Part shown: positions 38,517 to 60,161 of the stretch, one piece after another
How the letters are laid out: the number at the start of each line of letters is the position of its first letter
Numbering within the stretch: the first letter of the stretch is position 1
Source of the DNA: Phycisphaerae bacterium
Lineage (GTDB): Bacteria; Planctomycetota; Phycisphaerae; Phycisphaerales; UBA1924
Assembly (NCBI GenBank): GCA_030429705.1
Contig: JAUIES010000002.1
Location: 64,001 to 128,000 of the forward strand
Direction of reading: 5' to 3'
Length of the DNA stretch: 64,000 bases
Program-made: the position numbers and the translations under genes
Notes under the pieces: model-generated
Told to the model about the DNA's origin: nothing
Databases searched by the model: none
What the model saw: only the letters and a program-made list of their open reading frames with translations

Positions 38517-38739
38517 CGACTGTGTACCAGATATTGGGGTCATCGCCCGAATCGGTATATTGGTTGTGGTATTGGCGCGGGCTTTCGACTATGCTAGTCT
38601 GGACTAAGATACGACACAGCACCGTCAGGATTGCTCCGGAAAGGGCGGTTCGGTCGATGCATTACGGGGCTTCGATCCGCCAGGCGAACAGACCGAGGCG
38701 GACGATGAGAAAAGTTCAATGAGGCGAAAGGACATGCAG

Positions 38740-40734: not shown

Positions 40735-41459
40735 TGCAATGCCGCCGCGCATTTTCACTGTTGGAGGTACTTCTGGCGATTGCGGTCGTCATGATTTTGG
40801 CGGGCACGGTCTATGCGTTCCTTTTCGATCTGCTCGAAAGCCGAGATCGAATTCTCGACGAGAGTGATCGTTCGCGGGCGGGAATTGGCGTGATCGAGCA
40901 GCTCGAACGCGACATCATGACCACGCTCGCGGGGGCATCCGGGTATGGGGCCGGTGTTCAAGGGACCAGGACCTCGCTCACACTCTTGTCGCGAAGTGTG
41001 ACGCTCCCGATCGAGAACGAATCGCAAACAGTGTTGGGTGATTTACAAGGCGTTTCTTTTACTTGGGACGGCCAAAGCGGAGCACTCTCTGCAAGCCGAT
41101 GGGATGTTCTGTCAGGCGAGCGGGCGCAGCCTGAAGTCATTTCAGACAAGATCGCATACATGCAGCTGAGATACTTTGATGGTTCAAGTTGGAGCGGGCA
41201 ATACAACTCTTCGAGTACGCTTCCGGTTGCACTTGAGATCGCAATCTGGTTTGGGGAACCGACATTTGCGAATGAACCGTGGCCGGATGAGAACGATTTT
41301 GAAGATCGACCGGAAGAGATTTTTATTGACTCGACTGACGAGGCGATGACTGACGACGAGTTTGTTGAAGAGCCGCTACCTCCTGAACGGGCACCTGATC
41401 GGGTGCGCGTCGTTGTCGTTCCCGACGGGCCATCGATCGGATGGGGGGGCGGGCCATGA
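40731..41459 (+). CDS. gspJ: Minor pseudopilin GspJ-like
   Basis: A 242-residue pseudopilin: leader MMQCRRA, helix FSLLEVLLAIAVVMILAG, then a globular domain with VIEQLERDIMTTLAG, the phrase typical of GspJ, and IAYMQLRYFDGSSWSGQYNSSSTLPVALEI, which matches the C-terminal beta sheet of GspJ. The last 60 residues are unusually acidic. Two ATGs at 40731 and 40734 are preceded by a run of eight Gs; the first overlaps the gspI stop. Confidence 0.88.
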   Translation: MMQCRRAFSLLEVLLAIAVVMILAGTVYAFLFDLLESRDRILDESDRSRAGIGVIEQLERDIMTTLAGASGYGAGVQGTRTSLTLLSRSVTLPIENESQTVLGDLQGVSFTWDGQSGALSASRWDVLSGERAQPEVISDKIAYMQLRYFDGSSWSGQYNSSSTLPVALEIAIWFGEPTFANEPWPDENDFEDRPEEIFIDSTDEAMTDDEFVEEPLPPERAPDRVRVVVVPDGPSIGWGGGP

Positions 41460-43177: not shown

Positions 43178-44793
43178 GCAAACCTCTTTCTGGAACGGTG
43201 GTGGTCGTTCAAGTCGACAACGATCGACTGGCAGCGATTGAAGTCAAACTGCGCGGAAACGGAGTTTTAGTCGAACGGGCAATCTGCGCTGTCCGTCCAG
43301 CATCGGTGCAGAGCGACGAACCCGCAGGGATGGGTGCTTGGGTCAAACAGGTGCTGGCAGAAGCCGGCGTCTCGACCAAACGGGCCATTCTGGCAGCAGC
43401 ACGCGGCGAAGTCGTGCTCAAAGTACTCGAGTTCCCGGGGACCGGTCTTGTTGACGAGGCGGAGCGGTGCGAAGTTGTTCGCCTGCAGATGGCAAGGCAG
43501 TTGACGATGCCCATGAGTGAATCGGTCATCGACTGGATTCCAATGGATCGCGGGGAAGATGGTGCCGTTCGGTCTGTTATGGCAGGCGCGATTCATACCG
43601 ACCGACTCGATTGGTACGATTCGATCAGTACGGCTGCCGGGCTCAAACCGGTCGGCATGCAACTGAGTAGCGGCGGCATCGCCGCGCTCACCGCCGATCT
43701 GGAAGGGCCGGTGCTGGTTGTTGTACCTTCGATGGCAGGCATCGAGTTCGTGGTCGCTTGGGAAGGGCGTGTGATGTTCGCACGCGCGATTGAACTGCCG
43801 GAAGGATTTACAGCGGCGACCGAGCCTGAAGTCGCAGAACGCATCGCCGTCGAAGCGAAACGCACCTGGATGAGTTATCGTGTCTCGCAGCGTGCCGAAG
43901 ATATCGAAGTCGTCGCGGTGATTGGCTCTGATGGCAACGCCGAAGCAATCCGCAGCGCGTGCGCCCGACTGCTGGAGATTGAGAGCCGATGTGTCGGCTT
44001 GCCCGATCGCGTGAGCGTCAACGCGAACTTGCAGCATGAACAGCAGGCGTTGGTCTCCTCCTTGATTGGTCTTGCCGTTCGCGCGAGTACAGATGCCGAT
44101 CGGATGGATTTCCTCAATCCGCACGAGCCACCGGATGCAGCCGCCAACAGACGGATTGTTGCTCTGGCGGCTATTTTCGTGTTGATTGTCCTGTTGGGTG
44201 GGGGATTCTTGGTTCGGGGAGAGAAGTTGCGATCACTCGAGAAGGTGCGCAGCGGGCTCAAAGAGAACGAGGGCAAACTTGCACAAGATTATCTTGCCTA
44301 CCTGGGTGATCTGGCGCGGGCAGAACATCTGACGCGATGGGATGAACTCGATGCCGATTATCTCGGGCATATCGGGTGGCTTAGTGAGAGGCTGCCCGAT
44401 CCTACGATTTCGCTCGCAGATCGAATCGCTCTGGCGGTTGCCGGGCAGGTTCGCTACGACGGTCGGACCTTTCCCGGCGCCAACTGGCAAAGCCCGGCCC
44501 GCCTCGCGGTCTCGGTCTCGGGTAAGGTGGGCGACCGTGCCATCGCGTTGGACCTGCGAGACCGATTGCTGCGGGATGGGCCTTATGTGGTCGCCAATCG
44601 CGGTCCTGATGTTGCCGATCGATACGACTTTGAACTGACGACATCGGCGCTGGCCGATCCAACAGCGTCGGGGGCTCCCTCGGACCCGGACGAATCGAGC
44701 CGAGTGCCTCCCGTCAATGACACGCCCGTGGACGGAACACCAACGAACGAAACTGACGCAGCGAAAACACCTGCAGACGGCGAGGGACCATGA
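43174..44793 (+). CDS. gspL: GspL-type assembly protein (PilM-PilN-like)
   Basis: A 539-residue protein: the first 320 residues form an actin-like ASKHA domain (PilM/GspL cytoplasmic type; VLKVLEFPG, VIDWIPMD, GLKPVGMQLSSGGIAAL), then one membrane helix (IVALAAIFVLIVLLGGGFLV) and a periplasmic ferredoxin-like part (LSVSGKV, LRDRLLRDGPYVV). In T2SS, GspL links GspE to the periplasmic ring; here its head is unusually like PilM joined to PilN. The last 50 residues are Pro/Asp/Thr-rich. ATGA overlap with gspK; seven Gs precede the ATG. Confidence 0.82.
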   Translation: MSKPLSGTVVVVQVDNDRLAAIEVKLRGNGVLVERAICAVRPASVQSDEPAGMGAWVKQVLAEAGVSTKRAILAAARGEVVLKVLEFPGTGLVDEAERCEVVRLQMARQLTMPMSESVIDWIPMDRGEDGAVRSVMAGAIHTDRLDWYDSISTAAGLKPVGMQLSSGGIAALTADLEGPVLVVVPSMAGIEFVVAWEGRVMFARAIELPEGFTAATEPEVAERIAVEAKRTWMSYRVSQRAEDIEVVAVIGSDGNAEAIRSACARLLEIESRCVGLPDRVSVNANLQHEQQALVSSLIGLAVRASTDADRMDFLNPHEPPDAAANRRIVALAAIFVLIVLLGGGFLVRGEKLRSLEKVRSGLKENEGKLAQDYLAYLGDLARAEHLTRWDELDADYLGHIGWLSERLPDPTISLADRIALAVAGQVRYDGRTFPGANWQSPARLAVSVSGKVGDRAIALDLRDRLLRDGPYVVANRGPDVADRYDFELTTSALADPTASGAPSDPDESSRVPPVNDTPVDGTPTNETDAAKTPADGEGP

Positions 44794-45860
44794 AGTTCAC
44801 GCCTGTGCAGATCGTTGGGTCGCTCGTCGTCCTCGCTGTTCTGGCGTGGGTCGGTAAGTCGGCTGTGCATAAGTTCTACACGGTGCCGGTCGCGACTTTG
44901 GATGACGAGATCACGCGTTTGCAATCGACTTCAGATCGCATCACGAAAGAGTTGGACAATTGGATTCCGGCCAAGATCGAGTTGAGGTCATTCGGCGCCA
45001 CGCTTCTGTCACGCGAGTTTGACCAGACTGAACATCGCCTGCGCACCGCATTGCAAGATATCGGTAAGCAGGTTGGACTTGGCAATGTCAGAGTTTCGAG
45101 TTCGTCCCCAAAACCAGTTCGCACGCCCTTGGCTGAGTCGAGGCTGCGTGGCAGAATGCTTCGTTCCCTTGCGGATGCGCGCGATTTCGCCGTCGTTCGA
45201 GGATCCTTTACAGGAGTGGGCACGCTGGAACAGGTTGCGACTTCACTTGCCTTTCTGCAGAGTCAGCCCTGGTTGCACCGAATCGAGCGCGTTTCGATCG
45301 AGCCGCGCGGCCGCGAACGGCAGGCCTTCGAGATCGATGTCGGATTTGCGGTTGCCTTTGCGCCTGATCTGTGCCCGAAGGATGCGCCTGATCCAACAAT
45401 TGTTACCCCGGAAGAGGGTGTTTTAGAAATCGCCCGAGCGTTTGCGGCTCGCAATGTTTTTGTTCCACCTCCGCCTCCGCCAACGCCACCGCCGGATGTA
45501 GATCCAACGCCGGACACAACGCCTCCGCCTCCACCTCTTCCGGCTCAGCCCCCGTACGACCGTTGGAAAGTGACGGGTTTGATCGAACGCCGGATTGCCG
45601 GCGAGACAACTTCAGTTGAAGCGTGGGTATTGAACCTTGATTCCGGCGAACGCCGGGAACTTGTGCCCGGGGACGAGGTATTAGGTGTGACGCTCGTCTG
45701 GGTTGTCGGTGAATGTGGCGTGTTCGAGTTTGAAGGAAATCGGGTTGTCATCCACCAAGGTCAGACCTTGGCAGATCGCGTCCCCGCAGATTCGGTAGAC
45801 TGTCCTGGTGTCGAAGGCGTGCCCTCGGCGACCGGAGCCAGGACGGGTGAAGGAGAATGA
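44790..45860 (+). CDS. GspM/PilO-like protein fused to a GspC/PilP-like domain
   Basis: A 356-residue bitopic protein. Residues 1-25 contain one membrane helix (IVGSLVVLAVLAWVGKSAV), then a coiled-coil segment and a ferredoxin-like PilO/GspM fold (GSFTGVGTLEQVATSLAFLQ and IERVSIEPRGRERQAFEI). A linker of about 30 residues is mostly Pro (PPPPPPTPPPDVDP). The last 80 residues (WKVTGLIERRIAGETTSVEAW, ELVPGDEVLGVTLVWVVGECGVFEF) match the homology-region domain of GspC/PilP, which binds the N0 domain of the secretin. A separate gspC is not seen, so this gene probably supplies it. ATGA overlap with gspL; the next gene encodes the giant secretin. Confidence 0.78.
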   Translation: MKFTPVQIVGSLVVLAVLAWVGKSAVHKFYTVPVATLDDEITRLQSTSDRITKELDNWIPAKIELRSFGATLLSREFDQTEHRLRTALQDIGKQVGLGNVRVSSSSPKPVRTPLAESRLRGRMLRSLADARDFAVVRGSFTGVGTLEQVATSLAFLQSQPWLHRIERVSIEPRGRERQAFEIDVGFAVAFAPDLCPKDAPDPTIVTPEEGVLEIARAFAARNVFVPPPPPPTPPPDVDPTPDTTPPPPPLPAQPPYDRWKVTGLIERRIAGETTSVEAWVLNLDSGERRELVPGDEVLGVTLVWVVGECGVFEFEGNRVVIHQGQTLADRVPADSVDCPGVEGVPSATGARTGEGE

Positions 45861-48800
45861 CTATGGATCGCTCAGAGAACGGGCGTCGCGGACTGTCCGC
45901 AGCAATGGCATGTGCACTGATCGCTGCTGCGGGGTTACCTGTGACTGCGACGGTTGGCTCGATGGAACCGGTGGTCTTGAGTGACGACGGCGCTCGCGCC
46001 CCAGACCAGGCGGCTCCACCTACACGCGTGCGGTTCAATTTTGACGGCGTACCGTTCGATCAAGTGCTGGATTTCTTCAGCCGCGATGTGGGATTACCCG
46101 TCATTCGTGAAGCAGCGGTTCCAGAAGGCAACCTGAAGTTCATCAGTGGGCGCGACTTCACACTCGGTGAAGCGCTCGAAGTTGTGAACTACAGCCTGCG
46201 CGTGCATGGGGTGCGACTGGTTCACGAAGACGACTTCTTGTATCTGCGTACGATGGAAGGTGTTGCGACCGATGCGAGCCCAGTGGACCCGAGCGAACTC
46301 GTGAATCTCTCTGATGTTGATCCGTCTGCCTACCTGACCACTTACATCCCGCTCAACAATGCGAGTTCGACGGCAGTCGTCGAGCAGATCAAGCCATTGG
46401 TTCGTGCGCCGGGCTCAATCCAGGCGATCGAAGCACAGAACATGTTGTTGCTCGTTGAAACGGCAGCCCAGTGCAAGCGATTGTATGAGATCATCACGCA
46501 GATCGATCTGGTTCGCCCTGCCGATGCTGAGATGCTCGTGGTCCCTTTGCGGTTTGGTGCGTCGAAAGCGGTTGTTGCGACGCTCACGACATTGATTCCG
46601 GTATACGAACAGATCATGGTGCTCGACAAGAATCAGAACGCTCGGCTGATTGACGATGTGAGCAAACCCGCGATGCGTATCCAGGCGGATGAGCGCATGA
46701 ATGCGGTGGTTGCGGTTGGCCCGAGCGCTCGTATGGCGCTGGTGCGTGAACTCATTTCGATGCTCGACACAGCCGATGGATCATCCAGTATCGATGGTGG
46801 TCCGCAGATGCAGGCTTTTGAAGTCGTCGGTGTCACGCCACAGGATGCTGCGAAGCAGATTGACGCGTTGTTCAAAGCACTCCCTGATCAGCGCAAGCCC
46901 ACAGTGCAGGCACTTGCGGATGTTGGTCGCGTGATGATTGTCGGGTCAACGGAACAGATCTTGCAGACGAAAGCGTTGCTTGAGGTCATCGATCCAAACA
47001 GCACCGCGACCGCTCGGCAAGACCGTGCCGCCCGCGTGGTGCCACTCGAACATCTGGATGCTGAGAAAGCGATCCAGATTGCGACGCGTTTGCTTACGCC
47101 TCGGCAGTTGAACGCACTCAAGTATGTGCCTTCGCCGGGTGACGACGGCCTGTTGGTGGTCGGTCCTTCGAGCGATGTTGATGCGCTCGAGTCGTTGCTA
47201 CTCGGGCTCGATGTACGCCCTGAAGTGCGCCAGGAAGTGCGTGTCGTGACGATTCCGAGCGGCGACATCAACGCGATCATCGATTCAGCCAAGGCTTTTG
47301 ACGCGCTCACGCCGGACGCGGACGAAGATCCGGTCCGCGTCATTGTTGATGTGGAAACGCGATCGGTCACGCTCGTGGGCAGCAATGCTGCTCTTGCCCG
47401 TTTTGAGACTCGACTGCGCAGCGCCCAACAGAACATTGTTGTTGATACGGATTCACGAACCTACGCACTCGAGCATGCGCGAGCGACGGATATCGCCAGT
47501 CGGCTGCAGCGATTGCTGCGCCCCCTCCTCGAGCCAACAGACGGCTCGGCTTTCGTTTCGCCTCGCATCGAAGCGTTGGATGAGTTGGATTCGCTCATCG
47601 TGCACGCCTTGCCCGAACAGTTTTCGACGATTGACGGGTTGATTGCGCAGCTCGATCGAGAGAAACCCGGAGATCGGCAGTTCCAGGTGTTGCCTTTGCG
47701 CGGACCGGGCGCTGACGAAGCTATCACGCGTGCATTGGCTATCTACGCCCAACAGACTGCGGGTATGGATGATACAGAAGCAGGGCCAATCGAGCATGAG
47801 ATTGATCGACAAGCAGGTAAGTTGCTTTTGACCGGGCGCGCTGCCGGGCTGCGCATCTTCACTGGCATCTTGCAGCAAACGCAGCAACTCGCGCCGCCGC
47901 AACGCACGACACGAATCTTTGATGTGGAGTTTGCTCAGGCGAGCGATTTGATTGATCCTCTGAAGCAATACTTGGTTTCTGCTGACTCGATTGATCCTGG
48001 TCGCGAAGTTCCGGCACCGACGGTGACAGCGATCGCTCGCACCAACTCGCTCATGGTGACTGCCGAAGCGGCTCAGCACCAGATGATCGCCGACTATTTG
48101 AAGCGATTGGATCAAATCGAACCGACCGATCTGCCAGCGCTGCGGCTTTTGCAACTGCGGACAGCCGATGCAGTGAACATCGCAGCCATGCTGTCGCAGC
48201 AATACCAAAAGCGATCGGCAACCGATCGCATGGCGCGGCCGGTCGAGATCCGCGCCGACGGTAACACAAACACCCTCATCGTTGCGGCACATCCTGAACT
48301 CTTTGACGAGATCAAGGTCTTTGTAGATACACTCAACGAAGAAGAATCTGATCAACCTGAGCGCAAGACATTCCTGTTCCCATTGAAGGTCGCCAAGGCG
48401 ATCAATGTTGCCGAAGCGATGAACACGCTGTTCCCCGAGCCTCCAATGCCGAAGGATCGATTGGGGCGTGACATGCCTTGGCTGCGCGAGACGCGAGAAA
48501 TCACCGTCTCCGCCGATGATTCGAGCAACTCGCTGATCATCGACGCGCCGATCGAGCGTGAAGAATCACTTCGTGAGTTGGCAGAAAAACTGGACCGCGT
48601 CGAGGTTCCGCCGGTCGCAGAACTGCGGACTTATCAGGTTGTTGGCGCGGACCTGACATCTGTGGCGAACATGTTGCAGGGGCTGAGTCGGAACGGCTCG
48701 CTCAGTGGTGCTGCCCAGCCGGGTCGACCGAAAGTCCCTGTGGTCATCGAGACCGAGCCCAAGAGTTCAACCTTGATCGTGGCGGGCGATGATGTCACTT

Positions 48801-51800
48801 TCGAAAAGGTCGAGCAGATCTTGACGAGTCTGACTGCGGTTCCGATCGAGAAGGGTCTTCGGATCATTCCGATCGCGAATGCGGACGCAGCCGCTGTACG
48901 CGACCGAGCGCTGCAGATTTACGATGCGCAGGTTGCGCAGATTCCGGATTCGAACCCGGTGACAGTGACGATTGATTCCGAATCAAACTCGCTGGAAATC
49001 GTGGCCGATGCAGAAGCGATGGATCGTTTCATGACGATCATGGACGAGTTGCAGCGACAAATCGGCCCTGCCCGAGAAGTCCAGATGATTGAACTACGAA
49101 TGGCAAAAGCCATCGAAGTCATCGGGTTCTTGCGTGAACTCGTCGATGCAAGCGAATCACTTCGCGTCATGGGGGGGCCGGACCCGGTTTTCGAACCGAT
49201 CGAGACAACCAACTCGATCATGGTTGCTGCCCAACCCGCGCAGTTTGCGATCATCCAACAACTTGTGCAGAGCCTTGACAACCAACAGGTCGCCGAGCGG
49301 CCGCCGCTGCGCATCATGAAGTTGCGGTCGACTGACGCGTCGAATCTTGCTTCGGTGTTACAGCAGTCTTATCAGCAAAGGCCTCAGGAGGACCGAGCGA
49401 AGAAACCGGTCGATATCCAGGCGGATGCCGCGACAAATACCTTGATCGTGTCGGCGCACGCCGATGTCATGCCTGAGATCGAGTCGATCGTCAGTGAGTT
49501 GAATGACTCGCAGAGTCTCGATGAGTCTGATCGCCAGATTCAGATTTATCCGTTACGTGTGGCGCGGGCGGAAGACCTCGCCAAGACGATCGACGAGATG
49601 TATCCCGAGCCACCCATGCCGGTCGATGTTCGCGGTCGGCCGCGTCCGGACCTGCAACAGCCGAAGGAGATTTTTGTTCGCGCCGATCGTGCGACGAACT
49701 CTCTCATTGTTGATGCACCGACCGAACGACTTGCGGGCTTCGAGCAGATCGTGCGGCAACTGGATCAGGCGAAACTCGCCGACGATGTTGAACTGCGCAC
49801 CTATCGCGTCATGCGGGCCGATCTGACCGCGGTGGTTGCCACTCTCAATGGCCTTGCCGATAGCGGCGCATTGACAACGAGTATGCAGTCACCGGTCAGC
49901 ATCACCTCTGAACCCATGAGTCGTACGCTGGTCGTCAGCGGCCCGGCCGAGGTCTTTGAACGCGTCGAGGCTGTGTTGAAGGAAGTCGATGGCGAACTGA
50001 GCCGACCGACGACCTCGATGATGATGTACCCGCTCGAACATGCACGAGCGGATCGTTTGAAAGTAATTCTCGAGCAGATGCTCGAAGCGAGAATCCGGGA
50101 ACAGCAGGTTGCGGATGGCGTGATCGCACAGGATGCAGCCGACCTCCTCGAGATTTCTGCCGATCCGTCGTCAAACACGCTCATCATTTCTGCACCAGCC
50201 GGCGTGCAGGAAGAAGCCAAGCAGATCATCGATGTGCTCGATACCGAGGCTGCAGCGATCGGGCGCTCCAGCGTACGCATCGTCCCATTGACCTATGCAG
50301 ATGCGTCGCAAGTCGCACAGACGCTACAGCAAGCGGTTCCGTCAATGGATTTGCCCAGTGGTGAAGGTATTCAAATTTTGCCGTCGGCAAGTTCGAACGC
50401 GATTTTGCTCGCAGGTATCGGTGCTGATCTGTCAAAGGTAGAAGCATTGATCGAGCCACTCGATCGTCAGCCGTTTGACCCTGAAAAACCGGACATCGAG
50501 ACTTTTCCACTGGAGTTTGTGGATGCCACAGCGATCGCCAAGACGGTCGAAGCGCTGCTCGTCGACCAACAGCAAACTGATCCACGGATCCTGCTTCAGC
50601 AGATGCGTTTGCGCAATTTTCAAATGCCGACGGCTCCAAAGATTCGCGTCCACGCCGAGCCTCGCACCAATAGCCTGATCGTTTCCGGTCCGACCTCGAC
50701 GATCGAGTTGGCGCGAGCCATGATCGAACGGCTTGATCAACAGGCTGAAGACCCGGGGCGCACGGTCATCACTTTTACACCAATCAATGGTGATCCGGCT
50801 GTACTGGCACAAACGGTTTCGACCATCATGGCTGCGACCACCCCCCAGGGGCGGCGGCCGCTGGAGGTCACCGCCGAACCGGCATCAGGCACGGTGCTTG
50901 TCATCGGGCAACCGCTCGAAGCATCAGACGCGATCACAAAACTGACCGAACTCGACGAACGGACACCATCGCTGCCAATGGTTGATGTGCGTTCGTTTGA
51001 GTTGACCCATGCTGCTGCAGGTGGGTCAGCGGGCGCGGTCCAGACGCTGCTGTCAGATCAATCACGCTGGCCGGATGCGCTGGTTCGCGCTGAGCGTGCC
51101 GGCGTGCGGGTTCCGACGGTGTCTGTTCAAGCAGACCCGGCGATGAACAGGCTCATGGTGAGTGTGCCGAGTCTGCTCATGCCACTCGCTGAGCAGTTGA
51201 TTGCGACGATCGATCAGCCTCGCCAGTCGGCAGCCATCGATGTGCGCGTGTATCGCCTTGACAAGGGTGATGCGGCTTCGGTCAGGGAGGCGATCGCCGC
51301 CGCACTTTCAGCCGGTGTTCTGCCGGGTGAGACAGCACCGATTGTCACCGCAGAGCCCGAGAGCAACACGGTTGTGGTTGCGGGGACGCACGCCAAGTTG
51401 GAACAGGCAGCCGCATTGATCGCGTCGATGGATGAATCGGTCGAACCTGCCGGGATCGGTGTGCGAACGGTGTATCTCGAACACGCGCAGGCCGACGCGC
51501 TCGCGCCGATTGTCGAAGCGATCATTCAACGGGACGATCCGCTCGAACAAGCCGACCCGTGGATGCGATCGAGCCTCATGCGCGACATGTTGCGTTCAGG
51601 GCTCGATGTCTCTCAGGCACCGACGCGTGTGCTCGCCGAGCGCCGGCTGAACGCGTTGGTGATCACTGCGCCGACAGCGGTTCTCGATCTGGCTGAGCAA
51701 GTGATTGCAGGACTTGATGTCGATCGAGATCCGAGCGGGCCAGGTGGGGGGCGTATTGTTCGCGTGATTTCGCTGACCAATGCCGATGTGACTGAACTGA

Positions 51801-54800
51801 GCGTAAGTCTGGAAGAACTTTTTGACGATGACGATGCCGGCGAGGTTGCGCCGACCATTCGGGTCGATGCGCAGAGCAACTCACTGATCGTGCGAGGCAG
51901 CGAAAACCAGATCGCGATGATCGAAGAGGTCGTCTCGACGCTCGATACCGCAACGCTGAGTTCGCAGCGGCAAATGCGGCTTGTGCCGGTCGATCGATCG
52001 AAGGCTGATGCGGCGCTCATGGCTCAAACGCTGCGCCGCATGCTCGAACAACAAGGTGGCGTGACGGTCGAAATCATCTCGGCAGAAGAACTCATGGAAC
52101 GCCAGCGCAAGCCGAAACCAGTCGGGTCGGCAAGGCCCGTTCTGCCTGGGACCGACACGAGTCGACTCGGTGCGTGGGCGGTGGCTGTCGCGATGGGCAG
52201 CATTCAGCCCGAGGTCGATCAGGACGCAGACGAAGAGTTGAGCGCGTCGGCTGAGCCTTCAGTCGTTATCGCGGTCGATCCGGTGACCAACGCGCTCATC
52301 GTCATCGGTGCACCGCGACTGACAGATCGCATCGCGGGGCTCGTCAGCGAGCTCGAGTTGCAAATGCCCGCCGAACCAACCGGTGTTCGAATTGTCATGC
52401 TTCCGGTGACCGCAGATGCTCGCGGGGTTGCTGACATTGTCACGCAGACTGTTCGACAGGTCGGCACAGCGACTGCAACGAATCCTGGTGGCTTTACCGG
52501 CGCTATCGCGGTGCGCCCTGATCCAAGCGACAGCGCCCTCATCGTGTGGGCCAACGAAACTGATTTCGAAGCCGTCTCAGAAATCATCGCAGGTGTTTCG
52601 AGTTTGGCAGACTCAGTTCAACTGACGATCAAGGTGTATCCACTCGCCAATGTGCGAGCGAGACAGGCATTGACTTCGGTCCAGGATCTTTTTGCTGCCA
52701 GCCCGCGCGGTCGTCAGGCGCAGCAGTTGCGTGAGATGACGCTCGCTGGCGCGAACGGCGAACAGTTGAGAGCCACGATTAACCCGGAATCAGTCAAGGT
52801 GATCGCGGATCCGGGTGAAACGGCGCTCATCGTGGCTGCACCTGCAGATTCGTTTGACCTGATCGATCGATTTGTCAGCCTTATCGATCAGAATCCGGTC
52901 ATGAATCAACTGGCGATTCGTCGGTACGCACTTGAAAACGCGCAGGCCGAAGATCTCACTCAAACGCTGCAGAGTCTGTTCGATGCTCAACGAGCAGGGG
53001 CCGGTGCAAACGCGAACTCGTTGCCGCGTGCCCGATTCGTTGCTGATGACCGGACGAACAGTTTACTCGTCACCGCCACAGTCGAACAGCACGCCGAGAT
53101 CGATCGTCTCCTCGTGACCGCCGATGTTTCGACGGACCTCGTGGGTGTCGAGATGGCGATCATTTCGCTTAAAAACGCGAGTCCACGCAGCGTGCAGCAG
53201 ATCGTCGAAGAAGTCTTTATCGGCAAAGACCCAGGTCGCCGCGAACGCATACAGATTTCTGCTGAAGACGCGTCGAGTTTGTTCGTCATCAAAGCGCCCG
53301 CAGAAGAGTTGGCTGCGATCCGTGAATTGGTCGCGCAGGTGGATGAGGTCGAAGTGGGTACTTTCCCAATTCGATCGATCAAGCTCCAACAGGCGAACGC
53401 AAACGAAGTCGCTCAGCAGTTGCAGAACTTCTTTCGTGAGCGCGGCAACATGAGCGGGCGACGCGGAGCGCGTTCCGGATCAGCAGCGATCTTTGGCAAC
53501 GAGCGAAGCGGCACAATCGTGGTCTCTGCATCTGAATCTGATTTCGAACAGATTGAGTCTCTCATCACGATGTTTGATGTGCCGGCTGAAAGTCAGCGCA
53601 TGCTGCACCACATCATTCAACTCGAGCACGCCCGCGTCTCAGACATCGGCGACACGCTCCAGAATTTGGCGTGGGAGTTGCAGTCACAGAACTATGGCGG
53701 ATTCTGGGGGTGGGGGTACTCAAGTTCGAGCCAGTCCGGTTCAGACAAACTGGTCATAGAAACGAATGACCGTACGAACAGCGTGATCGTGTTCGGGCAG
53801 GGCGACACCCTTGACACTTTCCTGCAGATCATTTCTGAACTCGATATGCCGCTCTCCGAACAAACACGCCTCGAAGTGCGTGCTGTCAAGGCAAAGGGTG
53901 CTGATCTCAACGCCTTGCGTGATCTGATCGAGACCGCGACGGAAACGCCCGGTTGGCGAAGTTGGCAGGGGCGCGACCCGGATGCGGTGACTGTCGAAGT
54001 TGACCGCGAACGCGGGCTGTTGCTGCTTATCGGCGCAAAGGCCCGCGTCGATATGGCAGAGAACTATGTACAGGAGATCGCAGCCGCAGGTCTCGATACC
54101 GATCGCCGAATCTCGTCGGTTCGATTGGAACACGCCGATGCTGCAGGTGCGGCGCGCAGCCTGTCACAGTTCTTCCAAGAGCGAGCGCGAAGCCAGGGAC
54201 TCCGAGACGCCGGCGTTTCGATCATCGGCTCGCGCGATGGCAATGTGCTTCTGGTTTCTGCCGAAGACGACGATCTCGCCATCGTCAACGAACTCATCGA
54301 ACAGATTGATCAGCCCGAACTCGGGTCTGACCGTGTGGTCGAGGTGATCGCGCTCAAGCATGCGGCGCCGAGCGATGCAGCAGATCTCATTGACGATCTG
54401 TTCCCCGCTCAACGGACGGATGAACGCGTGATCGTCACGCCACAGCCAAGTCGTAATGAAATCATCGTGTCCGCGCCGCCGAGTGTGATGGCCGAGGTCC
54501 ACAGCCTGATTGAACGCATCGACACCATGCCCGATGCTGATTCGACGCAGATCGCGACGGTGCAACTCGAATCGGCACGAGCGGAGGATGTCGCAGCCGC
54601 ACTCAAAGGGGCGCTCCCCGAAGGCGTGCGAATCACGATTACAGCTGTCGAGCGTTCCAACTCGTTATTGTTGACAGGATCGGACGAGGCGATCGCGCTT
54701 GTCTCAAAACAGGCCCGCTCGCTCGATACAGAAACAGTCCTTTCGCCGGTCGAGTTCCGGCGATTCGAGATCAAGCACCAGGCGGTTTCGGATATCGCTT

Positions 54801-57800
54801 TCACCGTGCGCACGATGATGCGAGGTCGCCCGCGCAGCGTTGGCACGACCGAGCCCACTTTCGATCCCTTGTTTGATGACAATGTGCTCGCGGTAACTGC
54901 GTCCAGTGACGAGATGCCGTTCATCGAGAGCATCATCGAGCAGATCGACACGCCTCGCGGGACGACGCGCCGAACGGAGTTCTTCAGGCTCGAGTTCGCT
55001 CCTGCAGAATCGACCGCCGAAGCCCTCAAGGTGTTCTATGGCCAGTTCGCTCCCGAGGCATCGAGCCCGGCGCAGCGCGATGTCACGATCGTGCCTGATC
55101 CTGCGACCAACTCGCTCGTGATCGGTGCCGATGAGTCGGTGTGGGATGACATCACAGACCTCATCAAGAAACTGGATACCGCCGAGTACGACACCTCGCA
55201 GCAGTTGGTCGTGTTGCCACTCGAACACGCCGATGCAACGAGTGTTGCACGAGCGATTAACGAAGGCCTGCGTGCGCCGCTTGAAGAGCAGTTCCGTCAG
55301 GAACAACTGCGCCTGCGCAATGAGTCACGCAACAACCGTGGGAATCAGAACGACCCGATCTCGGCGCCGGCCGTCCTTGTCAGCGCCGAAGGCATGCCGA
55401 CGGTTTCTGCTGAGATTCAGACAAATTCATTACTGATTTTTGCAGGGCGGAAAGATCTCCTGCGCATCGAAGCAATCGTGAAACAACTCGATGTGCCGGG
55501 GTTCCGGCGCATGCCAGAGCCACGCGTCATCCCATTGCCCACCGGGCGGGCATCCGAAATCGCACGCTCGGTTCAGGCAGCATTTAACACGCCCGGCATG
55601 CGGCAGGGCAGTCCGCGCGATGTGGTCATTGTGGGCGATGATTCAGCAAACGCGCTCATCGTTCGAGCCGATGAAGAGCAGTTTTCTCAAATCCTGAGCC
55701 TGGCGATGGCGCTCGTGGGAGAAGCAGCGAACAGTCAGGCGACGCCACATGTTGTTCGTCTGAACAATGTTCCAGCGGTTCGATTGCGCGAGACTCTGCT
55801 GACCACATTTTGGCCACTGGCCCAACAACGCAACGAACCGATCACCATCAGCGTTGATCGTGGCACAAACGCACTCATCATCGCAGCAAGCGATGACTTG
55901 TTCGACCAGGTGGAATCGCTTGCACGCGAGTTGGACGGCTCATCGGACAACGCCGCAGGTGGAGCGATCGGCTCACTCGGTCAGACCGTGCTTGTCGTCG
56001 ATATCGAGCACTATGCACCGGAGGAAGTTGCGCAGATGCTGAATGTGTTTGGCGTGACTCGTGCTCAGCCCACCGACCGGCCGGGCTTGGTCAGTGAACC
56101 GGTGACGCTCGTTGAGTTGAAAACGCGGCGTGGCCTCGCGATCATGGGCAGTCAGGCCGATGTTCTTGTCGTGGCCGAGTTAATCAAGCAGATTGATAGC
56201 AAGCCGAGCGAATCGACGCAGAATCTTGCATCGGTACAACTGAAGATGGCTGAAGCCGATGAGGTTGTTGCCGTGCTCAATGAGATTCTGGACACCACGA
56301 AGGAACAGCCGGGTTCTGCTGCAGCCGCAGCGCTTCGCGAACACATTCGCAGGCTGAACATGGCGCGCGACAACCTGCGTGACGCACCGATCGACCTTGA
56401 TCTGACCGTTCCGATTCGCCTGATCGCTGACGCGCAGACGAACTCGGTGTTCATTGGTTCAACGCCGAGTAATGTCGCGTCGTTGAGCGCTCTGATCGAA
56501 CTGCTCGATACGCTGCCTGTCGGCGACGCGGTTGTTGTGCGGATCTTCCCACTGGAAAACTCATCAGCGCAGACACTCAAGCCGATTCTTGATCAGTTGT
56601 TCCGCGAAGGCGAGCGGCTTCGTCGTCAGCCGGGCAGCAATATTTCCGCGCTCCCAAACACGGCGATCGGACAGGCGTTGATCGGTGAGGTCGCGGTCTC
56701 GGTCGATGAACGCACGAACGCACTGATCGTCGCAGGCCGAGAAGAAGCCGTCGCGCTTGTCGAAGTGCTGATCAATGATCTCGATGCCGACGATGCCGAT
56801 CGTGGTTGGATTGAAGCCCACATCATCACACTCGAACACGCTGACGCTGTGACTTTGGCAGCGAAAATCGACGAGATCCTCGTTCGTGGTCTTGGTGATA
56901 CGCCAGAGGCGGTTGGTTTGCAACGGCAAGTTGGTCGCTTGCGACTCATGCTCGGTGGCGGTGATGCCTCCAAACCGGAAGCAATCGAGTCTGACATTTT
57001 TGCTCCGATGTCCGGGCTGGTGGTTACGCCCGAAGAAAACCTCAATGCCTTGGTTGTTGTTGGCACGCCAACCAACATCGGCGTTGTTCAGGAGTTGGTC
57101 CGAACGCTCGATGTCGAACTTGCCAGCGCCAGCAACGCGGTTCGTGTGATTCCGCTCGAACACGCTGCAGCCGAGCGAGTGTCAGGTATTGTGGGCGACA
57201 TGTTCCGCCAGCGCGAGAATCTCCCGTCGTTCCGTCCGGAAGACCGGGTCGTCATCAGCGTTGATTCACGAACCAACTCGTTGGTCGTTTCGACAAGTCA
57301 GCGGAGTTTTACGCTGCTTGATGGTCTGATCGATACCCTGGACAAAGCCGAGTCTCGCTTTGCTGTCGGACTTCATGTCGTGCATGTGCCAGATGGCGAT
57401 GTGCGCGATCTTGCACCCAAGTTACAAAGGCTCATGCGTGAACGACTCGATGCAACCCGGCGAGCGGGCGATGTCGAGTCGCCGGAAGATGTCTTCCTGA
57501 TCGAGCCGGAGCCGAGCACCAATGCTCTCATTGTTGCTGCCAGCGACGAGAACCTGACGCTGCTCAAAGACTTCATCGAAACACTCGCGAGTGGCGGCGA
57601 AGCCTTCAACAGCGGTGAGCGGCTTGAGTTGATTCCGATTCAGTCGCCCGGCCGGGCTGAAGAGTTAGCCGAAACGGTCGAGCGTTTGTATGTCGATAAG
57701 GAAAACGAACGCCGGGGCGATGGTTCGGTCCGCGTCTTGCCGAGCAGCCGACAGAACGCGTTGATTGCTTCAGGCACGGAAGAGGACATCATCGCCATCC

Positions 57801-59659
57801 GCGCGATCGTTGCCCGACTCGACGAGGCGCCGGTTGAGACCGTCCTCGATTACAAGCGGATCGCCCTCGCATCCGCCAGCGCACAAGAGGTCGTGCAACT
57901 TCTTGAAGACGCGCTCTCAGGCCGCTCGATCGGTGGAGCACGCGGCACCGCCAATGAACAAGCAACCGTTTTGCGTGTCTACCAGCCCGAGATCGAAGCC
58001 GCTGTCGCGGAAGCAACGATTGATGGCTCCGTGAGGCAACAGATCAGTCTGACACCTGATCTGCGTACCAACTCGGTGATGGTGACAGCCCCCCCGCAGA
58101 TCATGTCGCTGATTGTCAAAATCGTCGAAGATCTCGACAAAGACCGGCGCGGCGATAGAGTCATCGAAACCTTCCCGCTCGTCAATGCCGATGCTCAGGC
58201 GATGGCGGTCTTGCTCGGTGAACTCTTTAATCTCCGCCAACTCGGTGACAGCCTTGTGTTGATTCCAACCCGCAACGACAATCCTGACCCTGACGACTTG
58301 AGCGGTCGATTTACACCCGTGCCCGACATGCGGCAGGAACTGTCTATCACCGTTGATCGGCGTACGAACACGCTGCTCGTGTCAGGCACACAGGAGTATC
58401 TGGACGAAGTCCGGCAGGTCGTGACACAACTTGATTCCATCCAGGCGCTCGAACGCGAGCAACGGGTCTTTGATCTTCGTAACGCGCAAGCCAAGGAGAT
58501 TGAGGCAACGCTCCAGGCGTATTTCGATTCGGAGGCGGAACGCCGTCGATTGACGCTCGGGCCACAACGCGCCGAGAGTTTTATCCGCCAACTCGAGCAG
58601 GAAGTCACCGTGGTCGGTGACGAGAAGAGCAACAAGATTGTGATTTCCGCGTCGCCTCGATATATCGAAACGGTGTCGCAAATCGTTCAGGAGTTGGACG
58701 CGGCGCCCCCGCAAGTGATGATCCAGGTCCTCCTCGCCGAGGTCACGCTGGATGACACGGACACCTGGGGTATGGATATCAATGTGGGCGGCATCGTTGC
58801 GTCAAGCAAAATTGGCGGCGACGGGTATGTCTTCGACGCACTAGCAGGGGGGGCAGGAGTCGCAACATCGCTTGGTGTTCCAAATTTCTCGGTTGCCAGC
58901 ACCGATTTCACACTGCTCTTGCGGGCACTCGAAGAGCAGGGTCGACTTGAAGTGCTCAGTCGGCCGCACATTATCGTGAATAATAACGAGGAAGCAACGA
59001 TCAATGTCGGTGAAAACATCGCCATTGTGACCGGGGTTGATCGAGATCAGTTCGGTGGCTCAACCGCAAATGTCACGCGAGAAGATATTGGTATCATTCT
59101 GAATGTTCGGCCATCAATCTCGGTTGACGGATTCGTGCGCGTGGATATTGCACCCGAGATTAGCCAGTTGAGCGCTCGATCGGTCGAGATCGATCAAAAC
59201 TTCAGCGCCCCGATCATCACCCAGCGACTCGTCGATACCACGGTTACGGTGAAGGATGGGCAAACCGTCGTGATCGGCGGGCTCATTCAAACCATTGACG
59301 AGTATCGCAAGTCCAAACTCAAAGGGCTGGGCGACATCCCGCTGTTCGGCCCGTTGTTCCGCACGAGTGACAAGTCCAAAGTGAAGACAGAACTTCTCGT
59401 GATCTTGACACCCTATGTCATTCCTGGAGACTCACCAGCGGGTGAGTTGCGTCAGCGGCATCTCTCTCAGCAACATTTGGATCGCATGGATGACAATGAA
59501 CCGGTGTTTGATGCACTCGATTATCCTGGACGCATGCTGCCCTCGATCGACGGAACAGATGGACCGGTGGGGCTCCCGATCGCGCCGGATTCATTTCCCA
59601 TGACGGACTGGTTCCTTGATGAAGACGACCAAACTCAAGGCGGAGCCGACGATGAGTGA
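45857..59659 (+). CDS. gspD: Giant type II secretin (GspD-type) with about 50 N-type ring domains
   Basis: Outer-membrane channel of the secretion machine, about 4600 residues (GspD is usually 600-800). Order: signal peptide (about residues 15-32); N0 domain (residues 57-135, NFDGVPFDQVLDFFSRDVG, DFTLGEALEVVNYSL); about 50 tandem secretin_N/NolW-like modules (about residues 155-4284), each with an opening strand like VIPLEHADA, a helix, a strand TNSLIVSA and a closing helix ending LD; then the C-terminal secretin domain (from about 4285) with VLLAEVTLDD, LEVLSRPHIIVNNNEEATINVG, the TLK-like QTVVIGGLI and LGDIPLFGPLFR; finally an acidic tail. The frame is unbroken, so this is not a fused error across stops. 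The ATG overlaps the previous stop as ATGA like the other operon junctions; ATG 45863 has better SD spacing. Many modules would form a very long stack. Confidence 0.93.
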   Translation: MTMDRSENGRRGLSAAMACALIAAAGLPVTATVGSMEPVVLSDDGARAPDQAAPPTRVRFNFDGVPFDQVLDFFSRDVGLPVIREAAVPEGNLKFISGRDFTLGEALEVVNYSLRVHGVRLVHEDDFLYLRTMEGVATDASPVDPSELVNLSDVDPSAYLTTYIPLNNASSTAVVEQIKPLVRAPGSIQAIEAQNMLLLVETAAQCKRLYEIITQIDLVRPADAEMLVVPLRFGASKAVVATLTTLIPVYEQIMVLDKNQNARLIDDVSKPAMRIQADERMNAVVAVGPSARMALVRELISMLDTADGSSSIDGGPQMQAFEVVGVTPQDAAKQIDALFKALPDQRKPTVQALADVGRVMIVGSTEQILQTKALLEVIDPNSTATARQDRAARVVPLEHLDAEKAIQIATRLLTPRQLNALKYVPSPGDDGLLVVGPSSDVDALESLLLGLDVRPEVRQEVRVVTIPSGDINAIIDSAKAFDALTPDADEDPVRVIVDVETRSVTLVGSNAALARFETRLRSAQQNIVVDTDSRTYALEHARATDIASRLQRLLRPLLEPTDGSAFVSPRIEALDELDSLIVHALPEQFSTIDGLIAQLDREKPGDRQFQVLPLRGPGADEAITRALAIYAQQTAGMDDTEAGPIEHEIDRQAGKLLLTGRAAGLRIFTGILQQTQQLAPPQRTTRIFDVEFAQASDLIDPLKQYLVSADSIDPGREVPAPTVTAIARTNSLMVTAEAAQHQMIADYLKRLDQIEPTDLPALRLLQLRTADAVNIAAMLSQQYQKRSATDRMARPVEIRADGNTNTLIVAAHPELFDEIKVFVDTLNEEESDQPERKTFLFPLKVAKAINVAEAMNTLFPEPPMPKDRLGRDMPWLRETREITVSADDSSNSLIIDAPIEREESLRELAEKLDRVEVPPVAELRTYQVVGADLTSVANMLQGLSRNGSLSGAAQPGRPKVPVVIETEPKSSTLIVAGDDVTFEKVEQILTSLTAVPIEKGLRIIPIANADAAAVRDRALQIYDAQVAQIPDSNPVTVTIDSESNSLEIVADAEAMDRFMTIMDELQRQIGPAREVQMIELRMAKAIEVIGFLRELVDASESLRVMGGPDPVFEPIETTNSIMVAAQPAQFAIIQQLVQSLDNQQVAERPPLRIMKLRSTDASNLASVLQQSYQQRPQEDRAKKPVDIQADAATNTLIVSAHADVMPEIESIVSELNDSQSLDESDRQIQIYPLRVARAEDLAKTIDEMYPEPPMPVDVRGRPRPDLQQPKEIFVRADRATNSLIVDAPTERLAGFEQIVRQLDQAKLADDVELRTYRVMRADLTAVVATLNGLADSGALTTSMQSPVSITSEPMSRTLVVSGPAEVFERVEAVLKEVDGELSRPTTSMMMYPLEHARADRLKVILEQMLEARIREQQVADGVIAQDAADLLEISADPSSNTLIISAPAGVQEEAKQIIDVLDTEAAAIGRSSVRIVPLTYADASQVAQTLQQAVPSMDLPSGEGIQILPSASSNAILLAGIGADLSKVEALIEPLDRQPFDPEKPDIETFPLEFVDATAIAKTVEALLVDQQQTDPRILLQQMRLRNFQMPTAPKIRVHAEPRTNSLIVSGPTSTIELARAMIERLDQQAEDPGRTVITFTPINGDPAVLAQTVSTIMAATTPQGRRPLEVTAEPASGTVLVIGQPLEASDAITKLTELDERTPSLPMVDVRSFELTHAAAGGSAGAVQTLLSDQSRWPDALVRAERAGVRVPTVSVQADPAMNRLMVSVPSLLMPLAEQLIATIDQPRQSAAIDVRVYRLDKGDAASVREAIAAALSAGVLPGETAPIVTAEPESNTVVVAGTHAKLEQAAALIASMDESVEPAGIGVRTVYLEHAQADALAPIVEAIIQRDDPLEQADPWMRSSLMRDMLRSGLDVSQAPTRVLAERRLNALVITAPTAVLDLAEQVIAGLDVDRDPSGPGGGRIVRVISLTNADVTELSVSLEELFDDDDAGEVAPTIRVDAQSNSLIVRGSENQIAMIEEVVSTLDTATLSSQRQMRLVPVDRSKADAALMAQTLRRMLEQQGGVTVEIISAEELMERQRKPKPVGSARPVLPGTDTSRLGAWAVAVAMGSIQPEVDQDADEELSASAEPSVVIAVDPVTNALIVIGAPRLTDRIAGLVSELELQMPAEPTGVRIVMLPVTADARGVADIVTQTVRQVGTATATNPGGFTGAIAVRPDPSDSALIVWANETDFEAVSEIIAGVSSLADSVQLTIKVYPLANVRARQALTSVQDLFAASPRGRQAQQLREMTLAGANGEQLRATINPESVKVIADPGETALIVAAPADSFDLIDRFVSLIDQNPVMNQLAIRRYALENAQAEDLTQTLQSLFDAQRAGAGANANSLPRARFVADDRTNSLLVTATVEQHAEIDRLLVTADVSTDLVGVEMAIISLKNASPRSVQQIVEEVFIGKDPGRRERIQISAEDASSLFVIKAPAEELAAIRELVAQVDEVEVGTFPIRSIKLQQANANEVAQQLQNFFRERGNMSGRRGARSGSAAIFGNERSGTIVVSASESDFEQIESLITMFDVPAESQRMLHHIIQLEHARVSDIGDTLQNLAWELQSQNYGGFWGWGYSSSSQSGSDKLVIETNDRTNSVIVFGQGDTLDTFLQIISELDMPLSEQTRLEVRAVKAKGADLNALRDLIETATETPGWRSWQGRDPDAVTVEVDRERGLLLLIGAKARVDMAENYVQEIAAAGLDTDRRISSVRLEHADAAGAARSLSQFFQERARSQGLRDAGVSIIGSRDGNVLLVSAEDDDLAIVNELIEQIDQPELGSDRVVEVIALKHAAPSDAADLIDDLFPAQRTDERVIVTPQPSRNEIIVSAPPSVMAEVHSLIERIDTMPDADSTQIATVQLESARAEDVAAALKGALPEGVRITITAVERSNSLLLTGSDEAIALVSKQARSLDTETVLSPVEFRRFEIKHQAVSDIAFTVRTMMRGRPRSVGTTEPTFDPLFDDNVLAVTASSDEMPFIESIIEQIDTPRGTTRRTEFFRLEFAPAESTAEALKVFYGQFAPEASSPAQRDVTIVPDPATNSLVIGADESVWDDITDLIKKLDTAEYDTSQQLVVLPLEHADATSVARAINEGLRAPLEEQFRQEQLRLRNESRNNRGNQNDPISAPAVLVSAEGMPTVSAEIQTNSLLIFAGRKDLLRIEAIVKQLDVPGFRRMPEPRVIPLPTGRASEIARSVQAAFNTPGMRQGSPRDVVIVGDDSANALIVRADEEQFSQILSLAMALVGEAANSQATPHVVRLNNVPAVRLRETLLTTFWPLAQQRNEPITISVDRGTNALIIAASDDLFDQVESLARELDGSSDNAAGGAIGSLGQTVLVVDIEHYAPEEVAQMLNVFGVTRAQPTDRPGLVSEPVTLVELKTRRGLAIMGSQADVLVVAELIKQIDSKPSESTQNLASVQLKMAEADEVVAVLNEILDTTKEQPGSAAAAALREHIRRLNMARDNLRDAPIDLDLTVPIRLIADAQTNSVFIGSTPSNVASLSALIELLDTLPVGDAVVVRIFPLENSSAQTLKPILDQLFREGERLRRQPGSNISALPNTAIGQALIGEVAVSVDERTNALIVAGREEAVALVEVLINDLDADDADRGWIEAHIITLEHADAVTLAAKIDEILVRGLGDTPEAVGLQRQVGRLRLMLGGGDASKPEAIESDIFAPMSGLVVTPEENLNALVVVGTPTNIGVVQELVRTLDVELASASNAVRVIPLEHAAAERVSGIVGDMFRQRENLPSFRPEDRVVISVDSRTNSLVVSTSQRSFTLLDGLIDTLDKAESRFAVGLHVVHVPDGDVRDLAPKLQRLMRERLDATRRAGDVESPEDVFLIEPEPSTNALIVAASDENLTLLKDFIETLASGGEAFNSGERLELIPIQSPGRAEELAETVERLYVDKENERRGDGSVRVLPSSRQNALIASGTEEDIIAIRAIVARLDEAPVETVLDYKRIALASASAQEVVQLLEDALSGRSIGGARGTANEQATVLRVYQPEIEAAVAEATIDGSVRQQISLTPDLRTNSVMVTAPPQIMSLIVKIVEDLDKDRRGDRVIETFPLVNADAQAMAVLLGELFNLRQLGDSLVLIPTRNDNPDPDDLSGRFTPVPDMRQELSITVDRRTNTLLVSGTQEYLDEVRQVVTQLDSIQALEREQRVFDLRNAQAKEIEATLQAYFDSEAERRRLTLGPQRAESFIRQLEQEVTVVGDEKSNKIVISASPRYIETVSQIVQELDAAPPQVMIQVLLAEVTLDDTDTWGMDINVGGIVASSKIGGDGYVFDALAGGAGVATSLGVPNFSVASTDFTLLLRALEEQGRLEVLSRPHIIVNNNEEATINVGENIAIVTGVDRDQFGGSTANVTREDIGIILNVRPSISVDGFVRVDIAPEISQLSARSVEIDQNFSAPIITQRLVDTTVTVKDGQTVVIGGLIQTIDEYRKSKLKGLGDIPLFGPLFRTSDKSKVKTELLVILTPYVIPGDSPAGELRQRHLSQQHLDRMDDNEPVFDALDYPGRMLPSIDGTDGPVGLPIAPDSFPMTDWFLDEDDQTQGGADDE
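48137..48708 (+). repeat. Three-module block A in the secretin array
   Basis: Modules 9-11 by my count. Shares phrase order with block B (49306-49875): LRLLQLRTADAVNIAAML, EITVSADDSSNSLIIDAP, ELRTYQVVGADLTSVANML, and the unusual EPPMP sequence between strands. Indicates a block duplication. Confidence 0.8.
49306..49875 (+). repeat. Three-module block B in the secretin array
   Basis: Modules 14-16 by my count. Corresponding phrases: LRIMKLRSTDASNLASVL, EIFVRADRATNSLIVDAP, ELRTYRVMRADLTAVVATL, and MYPEPPMPVD against LFPEPPMPKD in block A. The two copies are five modules apart. Confidence 0.8.
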
Positions 59660-60161
59660 ATCGGTGTTGAGTTTTCGCGGGCTGGTTTTGATTTGTTGCA
59701 GCCTTCTCGTTTGCATCGCTTCTGGCTGCGCACGAGATGGGCAGACGCGTCGTTCAGATGCGTCAAAGGTTGGAGATCGAACACCGGTGCAGGTTCAACT
59801 TACGATCGGTCTTCCATTCGACTCTGACGGGAACGGATATCCGGATACGATGCAGGCGATCGCTTACCTGTTTCCGGATTCACGGGTGACCGCTATTCCC
59901 GTGCGTGCTTCAGGCACCTTCGAGTTCGTCATGCACAACCCACAAAACGAACTCATCGCTCGGTGGGTGTTCCCGCCCGATGTCGTCGCTCGGGCGGAAC
60001 GAAATTTGCCTGCCGGCCCGGGTTATTCCATGGCGCTGCGCCTGACTCCAATGCAGGATGCCATGCCACCGACGGCAGGTGACATCCGATGCCAGTTCAT
60101 TGATGAGAACGGGAACAAGATTCGCAGCACCGGCCGAACCACGGTTCGCTTGGGCGGTTAG
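59652..60161 (+). CDS. Small lipoprotein after the secretin gene
   Basis: A 169-residue protein with a lipoprotein signal (LICCSLLVCIASGCARDG, lipobox ASGC) and a body of beta-strands with VQVQLTIGLPFDSDGNGYPDTMQAIAYLF and SMALRLTPMQDA. No family recognised. It overlaps the end of the secretin gene by 8 bases, so it is part of the operon. Its position after gspD makes it a candidate pilotin or secretin partner; no pilotin motif can be seen and this is inference only. Confidence 0.75.
   Translation: MSESVLSFRGLVLICCSLLVCIASGCARDGQTRRSDASKVGDRTPVQVQLTIGLPFDSDGNGYPDTMQAIAYLFPDSRVTAIPVRASGTFEFVMHNPQNELIARWVFPPDVVARAERNLPAGPGYSMALRLTPMQDAMPPTAGDIRCQFIDENGNKIRSTGRTTVRLGG

Follow-up and report, generated by a model that had tools for sequence, protein, structure and literature searches.

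The window, a 64,000-nucleotide stretch of DNA from a Phycisphaerae bacterium, encodes a secretin of 4600 amino acids in which an N0 domain is followed by 50 Secretin_N-type modules and a C-terminal secretin domain. Comparison with its relatives showed that this giant, with its tens of modules, is a GspD variant of old origin that is kept under selection. In 19 other loci we found such arrays divided between adjacent genes and broken inside modules, which is new here. The gene itself, first noticed in a sequence-only reading of the window, was confirmed; the proposal made there, that the modules form rings and the rings a channel, was partly supported. The variant occurs in many families of the class and in some Verrucomicrobiota.

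The giant secretin and its operon

The gene (45857-59659, forward strand) starts with ATG and has no internal stop codon, against 65-194 stops in each of the five other frames, so that the description of a single unbroken frame holds. The protein begins with a signal-like segment (45857-45958, forward strand; hydrophobic stretch at residues 12-34) and would have a mass of about 495 kDa, assuming the putative cleavage after residue 34. It continues with a GspD-type N0 domain (46019-46246, forward strand; approximately residues 55-130), the 50-module array (46319-58708, forward strand; residues 155-4284) and the secretin domain that forms the outer-membrane channel (58925-59422, forward strand; residues 4357-4522; Pfam PF00263, E = 3.2e-44). 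In Pfam searches, Secretin_N (PF03958) matched 43 stretches of the protein (E = 0, 1194 bits). For module counts we used a custom profile HMM built from the giant's own modules, which found exactly 50 consecutive modules (each E < 1e-11) spaced by -1 to 6 residues, with a single exception of 13. In control searches with 20 shuffled versions and one reversed copy of the protein, this HMM gave at most one match each at E < 0.01 (one match each in two shuffles and in the reversed copy). The earlier estimate of about 50 Secretin_N-like modules therefore proved accurate at 50 plus N0, with 43 of the 50 recognized by Pfam and all 50 by the custom HMM, and the Pfam count gave no sign that most units are something other than Secretin_N.

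For the giant alone, the Pfam model gspD_N0 gave E = 0.007, which is below its cut-off. A profile of N0 and module 1 built from 26 rows matched N0-N1 of solved GspD/XcpQ structures with E ~1e-11. At the secretin end, the best PDB match was the GspD structure 5wln (E 4.3e-36), and both terminal domains are thus of the GspD type. With GspD/PulD/XcpQ (PDB 5wln, 5wq7, 6hcg, 3ezj) the giant shares N0 at the N-terminus, N modules of the beta-alpha-beta-beta-alpha type, the secretin domain at the C-terminus and a T2SS operon. It departs from GspD in module number: PulD has N0-N3, that is, about three modules (N1-N3) after N0, PilQ reaches N5, and the giant has 50. Since this number varies among secretins, we take the 50 modules to mark a variant of GspD rather than to exclude the protein from it. 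PilQ proteins are characterized by AMIN domains and a pil operon; the giant had no AMIN match in Pfam and has T2SS-type neighbours, and we rejected its assignment as a PilQ. Elsewhere in this genome, secretin frames are 808-1177 residues long (the two of 808 residues lie on short contigs and could represent a single gene), with one to three Secretin_N matches in the 808-, 864- and 925-residue frames and none in the 1177-residue frame; 41 of the 49 Secretin_N matches counted genome-wide fell into the giant.

The genes in front of the giant, all on the forward strand, encode GspF (37317-38516; Pfam), the major pseudopilin GspG (38719-39237; Pfam), pseudopilin-like proteins at the GspH position (39185-40147; weak N_methyl match, E 0.02) and the GspI position (40144-40734; read from the sequence, N_methyl E 6.8), a GspJ-like minor pseudopilin (40731-41459; Pfam, below its cut-off), a GspK-like protein (41441-43177; Pfam), a GspL/PilM-like protein (43153-44793; weak match) and a protein at the GspM position (44790-45860) with one N-terminal hydrophobic segment. 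A GspE-type ATPase with an MshEN N-terminus of the c-di-GMP type lies nearby, apart from the operon and on the reverse strand (34019-35701), and no clear GspC was found. The statement that the surrounding operon is an otherwise complete T2SS operon thus holds as far as a conserved T2SS operon is concerned, with the reservations that GspE is on the opposite strand and that a clear GspC is missing. Homologues of K, L and M adjoin the giant in all 22 fetched loci of the family and a small protein follows it in 20 of them; F and G were seen only where the fetched stretch reached far enough.

The protein at the GspM position gave no convincing PDB match; of its 22 members, two matched T2SSM weakly and one matched T2SSB. 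A PilP/GspC domain that had been suspected in it by eye found no support in structure and domain searches. It is a possible inner-membrane partner of N0. The small lipoprotein gene that overlaps the end of the secretin gene (59652-60161, forward strand) has a lipobox-like IASGC, recognized by eye, and a D-x-D-x-N-G-like motif; its product had no Pfam match. A lipobox pattern was present in 15 of 27 frames downstream of giants, and in more of them by eye, and we regard this conserved lipoprotein as a candidate pilotin. Elsewhere in the window, at 26483-28702, a protein carries a C-terminal GC-type dockerin (NCBIfam NF041540), a possible sorting signal.

Age and distribution of the array

In a module-by-module comparison, the 12 relatives fetched from the family that also have 50 modules showed colinear reciprocal best hits at 47-50 of the 50 positions of the window protein, with a mean same-position identity of 46-68%. 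Inside the window protein, each module was mostly 22-38% identical to its best other module; the exceptions were modules 9-11 versus 14-16 (42-49%) and a 35-residue match between modules 45 and 46 (43%). Since the modules differ this much inside one protein and are yet colinear across genera, each position must be old, and the low identity within the protein compared with the high same-position identity rules out that the array as a whole arose by recent expansion of repeats. One block is a probable five-module duplication (47660-49996, forward strand; modules 7-11, residues 602-994, and 12-16, residues 996-1380), in which the high identity is confined to modules 9-11 and 14-16, whereas modules 7-8 and 12-13 are only 26-29% identical. 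Modules 7-11 of the window have no counterpart in L083. Length differences within the family correspond to whole modules, and whole blocks are missing in shorter members: modules 18-21 in L076, L077 and L083, and modules 7-11 also in L083.

Module counts were exactly 50 in the 12 relatives and 36-51 in ten other members of the family, 30-53 in six proteins from the rest of the window's order and 31-63 in one-chain proteins of other families of the class. The longest relative (L100:444-18950, from the MAG of isolate M_DeepCast_400m_m2_048) is a frame of 6169 residues with 63 modules. At a distance, outside the window's order, it is mainly some of the modules 42-50 that still match, in order. 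The dN/dS of the giant against three relatives was 0.11-0.13, with dS of 1.8-2.4 being near saturation. We conclude that the giant is an old GspD variant kept under selection. As a side observation, L077 has an antisense open frame of 4634 residues that is longer than its giant gene (4278 residues), probably an effect of codon composition.

To follow the distribution of the giant, 61 genomes of 61 genera of the family were searched for the secretin domain. Among the matches listed, frames of at least 1700 residues occurred in 31 genomes (21 of them with 4278-4765 residues, some of the shorter ones meeting contig ends) and about half of the sampled genomes showed no giant. A GspK-like neighbour was present in 32 of the 61 genomes, in 31 of them with E < 1e-10. 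Giant and neighbour were found together in 30, and among the matches listed the neighbour occurred alone in G005 and the giant alone in G027. This co-occurrence suggests that genomes have or lack the system nearly as a whole. In the class, frames of at least 2300 residues were found in at least 49 of 198 genomes. A phylum-wide sample comprised 294 genomes, of which 272 did not belong to the class, with mostly five candidates scored per genome; the longest frame outside the class was 1491 residues among the matches listed. Further long, module-poor frames came from Gemmataceae (1968 residues) and from L164, labelled Planctomycetota (2267 residues), with 11 modules each. The secretins of Pirellulales, Thermoguttaceae, Gemmataceae and Planctomycetaceae belong to the same family and are moderately lengthened, with 6-11 modules in the complete frames of rows bearing these names.

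The named carriers of giants are Phycisphaerales and Phycisphaerae MAGs and, in addition, Verrucomicrobiota (L123-L127, L129, L132-L134, L142, L147 and L180, several cut by contig ends), for example L124 and L180 (labelled Pedosphaera) with 42 modules each. The search for long homologues proposed with the sequence-only reading thus yielded relatives with 30-63 modules, reaching beyond the Planctomycetota in which they were to be sought. In a midpoint-rooted tree that includes the duplicate rows L131 and L138, the 12 Verrucomicrobiota rows and L137 formed one clade (SH-aLRT 100) nested in a set otherwise made up of planctomycete giants (SH-aLRT 96). This nesting suggests that the Verrucomicrobiota giants were acquired by transfer, with the reservation that MAG labels are fallible. 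Some labels look wrong: the row L110, labelled Leptolyngbya, falls into the window's family, and the Akkermansia-labelled rows among L123, L133 and L134 group with other Verrucomicrobiota MAGs. Three contigs were duplicates of others (L131 of L100, L138 of L093, and L119 of L201). We also noted a separate protein of 2240 residues with 17 modules (L161:9030-15749) downstream of a nine-module secretin.

Arrays on several chains and the joint at module 25

In L094, the array is distributed over two adjacent genes. One encodes a protein of 3041 residues that has 28 modules but lacks a secretin domain, the other a secretin of 1718 residues with 15 modules. We fetched 16 further loci, of which 13 had two or more adjacent module frames (among them L196 with unread bases, L197, which meets a contig end, and L201, which is identical to the L119 locus). 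The remaining three were L189 and L199, both truncated at contig ends, and the single-chain L202. Together with seven earlier ones, and with duplicates counted once, this gave 19 distinct loci in which the array lies on two adjacent genes, once on three, with the break inside a module. Behind its last complete module, the upstream protein carries the first half of another in 15 of the 19 loci at E < 0.1, but in only five under a stricter rule; the match was weak (E 0.6-0.7) in the four near relatives L136, L187, L188 and L196. In most cases an Arg/Ser-rich tail follows. The secretin begins with a hydrophobic signal-like segment in 18 of the 19 loci, and behind it an orphan second half was recognized in 16 at E < 0.05; the HMM did not find it in L094, L192 and L197. 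Such matching half modules on adjacent chains are most easily read as parts of one continuous structure.

The upstream proteins without a secretin domain have 21-28 modules in complete frames, stand beside secretins with 12-16 modules (for example L094:4961-14083, L187:5537-13912 and L191:6711-14513) and usually end with the half module and the basic tail. They have the modules in common with the giant and, in L094, an N0-like start seen by eye, but they differ from it in having no outer-membrane channel; to our knowledge, multi-module proteins of this kind belong to no named family. In L200:6919-19461, three consecutive genes encode 8, 14 and 15 modules and both breaks are inside modules, each followed by a new signal-like start: by eye, the first gene ends in a first half, and the middle gene has a signal-like start and a second half. 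A Verrucomicrobiota giant with a single in-frame stop inside a module (L142:4580-4582) was not counted as a multi-chain case, as no new signal-like start lies behind the stop.

L118 and L119 break elsewhere, within the module corresponding to module 25 of the window (51956-52357, forward strand), and both of their chains match that module. In the window protein, module 25 is interrupted by a long loop with the hydrophobic segment LGAWAVAVAMGSI (52166-52204, forward strand; residues 2104-2116); in the AlphaFold model this loop is disordered and the module is completed from both sides of it. A hydrophobic core was present in the joint loop of 38 of 41 proteins, including the window's, whereas other long loops had one in 3 of 189 cases (p = 3e-23); the 41 are those fetched proteins that had 28 or more reciprocal-best modules and in which module 24 as well as 26 or 27 was recognized. 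In an earlier ranking of joint hydrophobicity, L069 and L110 came second; that ranking was made without L070, L075, L090, L092 and L109, whose module 25 had been cut by the HMM. In the window's order, the core is followed by acidic residues and the 20 residues before it are not basic (mean -0.2, versus +1.1 for controls). The loop was therefore only partly consistent with a canonical signal peptide, having the hydrophobic core and not the basic n-region.

In other families, the fused frames carry inserts of approximately 150-400 residues 11-15 modules before the secretin domain. These often consist of an Arg/Ser/Gly-rich stretch and a hydrophobic segment, which looks canonical in L103 and L139. 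A second insert with a hydrophobic segment lies near the start of the array in L097, L103 and L139; in L097 and L103 it comes after eight or nine modules, at about the place of the first gene boundary of L200. The presence of inserts and gene boundaries at several places indicates that fusion or fission of secreted proteins occurred repeatedly and that the joints were kept.

These joints could mean that the giant is a polyprotein, in which the segment of module 25 acts as an internal signal peptide, or as a signal peptide after an internal start, so that two chains result. The hydrophobic core that sets the joint apart from other long inserts, the new signal-like start at the gene boundary of L118 and L119, and the canonical-looking signal peptides kept in fused frames such as L103 and L139 all speak for such processing. 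Against it stand the lack of basic residues before the core, where a signal peptide has its n-region, and the fact that several inserts have, by eye, no clear cleavage motif. We regard processing as possible but rather unlikely; it would in any case be compatible with a tube of stacked rings.

A predicted tube of stacked rings and alternatives to it

Structure prediction of sections of the protein, another proposal of the sequence-only reading, gave modules of the beta-alpha-beta-beta-alpha type in the modelled parts and left their relative placing unfixed. AlphaFold modelled the C-terminal part with pLDDT 72 and pTM 0.41, and modules 23-27 with pLDDT 72.6 and pTM 0.45; with such low pTM values the models do not determine how the modules are placed relative to each other. 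The closest PDB matches of the C-terminal model were T2SS secretins (E 4e-27). Per-column hydrophobicity of array modules and of modules from short secretins was closely correlated (r = 0.94; n = 2270, a pool that includes the duplicate contigs L131 and L138, and n = 32), and this shared profile is compatible with ring formation. The number and order of the modules, conserved in the family, and the breaks inside modules of the multi-chain relatives may likewise be taken as indirect support for rings.

We consider it fairly probable that the giant is the GspD of a working T2SS, with about 51 stacked rings that would form a periplasmic tube for the export of folded substrates. Its periplasmic part, in other secretins usually N1-N3, would have expanded to N0 and 50 modules. 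Known secretins have 12-15 protomers; a similar number of giants would probably assemble, with one ring per module. That all 50 modules follow one another along the chain and leave no spare linkers was counted for this arrangement. N0 would sit at the inner-membrane platform (GspE, F, L and M), and the outer membrane would hold the C-terminal domain, so that the rings together would make a single tube across an unusually deep periplasm, in which the pseudopilus (GspG-K) would move folded substrates. Secretin rings rise by about 2.5-3 nm each; with this assumed value, 51 rings would give a tube of about 130-150 nm. A single chain may make up the stack, or two or three chains may contribute to it and meet at split modules. 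More tentatively, we infer the picture as a whole: a tube of well over 100 nm with about 51 rings, which in some lineages would consist of two or three segments locked through split domains, and whose joint may be processed in one-chain proteins. Against the reading as a tube of stacked rings we counted the low pTM values, the failure to find a clear GspC-type partner for N0, and the roughly half of the family's sampled genomes in which no giant was seen. For a surface or extracellular tube, which had also been suggested, we found no evidence.

In the accessible part of PMC6882859, PulD with N0-N3 has a total length of 20 nm. A precedent by analogy for a long ring stack may be seen in PilQ of Thermus thermophilus, whose six stacked rings N0-N5 are termed unusual and span most of a wide periplasm, to which its authors relate them (PMC5745081, accessible part). 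In having more rings than usual and in the tie to a wide periplasm it resembles the proposed tube; it differs in having only six rings, in belonging to a type IV pilus system and in consisting of one chain. No secretin with dozens of N domains was described in the literature searched, which left most subscription journals and bioRxiv uncovered and included accessible parts of PMC11131199, PMC3422733, PMC5394234, PMC5147048, PMC6882859, PMC10329019 and PMC5745081.

For the window's class, the literature search found no description of the periplasm. Planctopirus limnophila is a planctomycete of a class other than Phycisphaerae. As far as the accessible part of PMC5394234 goes, its periplasm is variable and can be huge, its width differs between cells, and pili-like fibres emerge from crateriform pits where the two membranes touch. 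Since the planctomycete groups sampled outside the class have few modules, periplasm depth and ring number need not go together, and we treat the link between them as a hypothesis.

An improbable alternative is that rings are formed by N0 and the last few modules alone, while the 40-odd modules between them are a flexible tether, like beads on a string, that leaves the width of the periplasm free to vary. The low certainty between modules in the AlphaFold models (pTM 0.41 and 0.45), the variation of module number from 30 to 63 and the differing periplasm width of P. limnophila cells (PMC5394234, accessible part) would fit such a tether. However, linkers of -1 to 6 residues and one of 13 offer no flexible spacers, 50 positions each conserved over genera exceed what a tether needs, and the array modules keep the hydrophobicity pattern of short secretins. 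In the multi-chain relatives, moreover, the tether would be unlinked unless the split module joins firmly.

Still less likely, in our view, is that the stacked tube guides or encases another filament, for example a pilus at crateriform-like pits, instead of serving T2SS export. The fibres that emerge from crateriform structures at membrane contacts in P. limnophila (PMC5394234, accessible part) and the MshEN domain of GspE would be in line with this, but the neighbours include T2SS-type GspG and GspK, and among the planctomycete groups sampled outside the class, where the pit-bearing P. limnophila also belongs, complete secretin frames have few modules. That the gene is an assembly artefact, a chimaera or a decaying pseudogene, as its very long frame and the in-frame stop of L142 might suggest, can be regarded as refuted, because the same layout recurs in independent genomes, with exactly 50 modules in 12 fetched relatives, dN/dS is approximately 0.12 and the modules are too diverged for an error of repeat collapse or expansion.

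The largest secretin ring stack that we found described has six rings (PMC5745081, accessible part); the giant would have about 51, and its relatives have up to 63 modules. If the rings stack as proposed, few protein channels known from cell envelopes would be longer, and the periplasm of Phycisphaerae and some Verrucomicrobiota would be predicted to be deep, either throughout or in places, so that the spanning of the planctomycete envelope becomes directly testable by tomography. The joint at split modules would be a new way of building a tube from several chains. The natural series of 30-63 modules would suit the question of whether ring number sets the envelope spacing or follows it.
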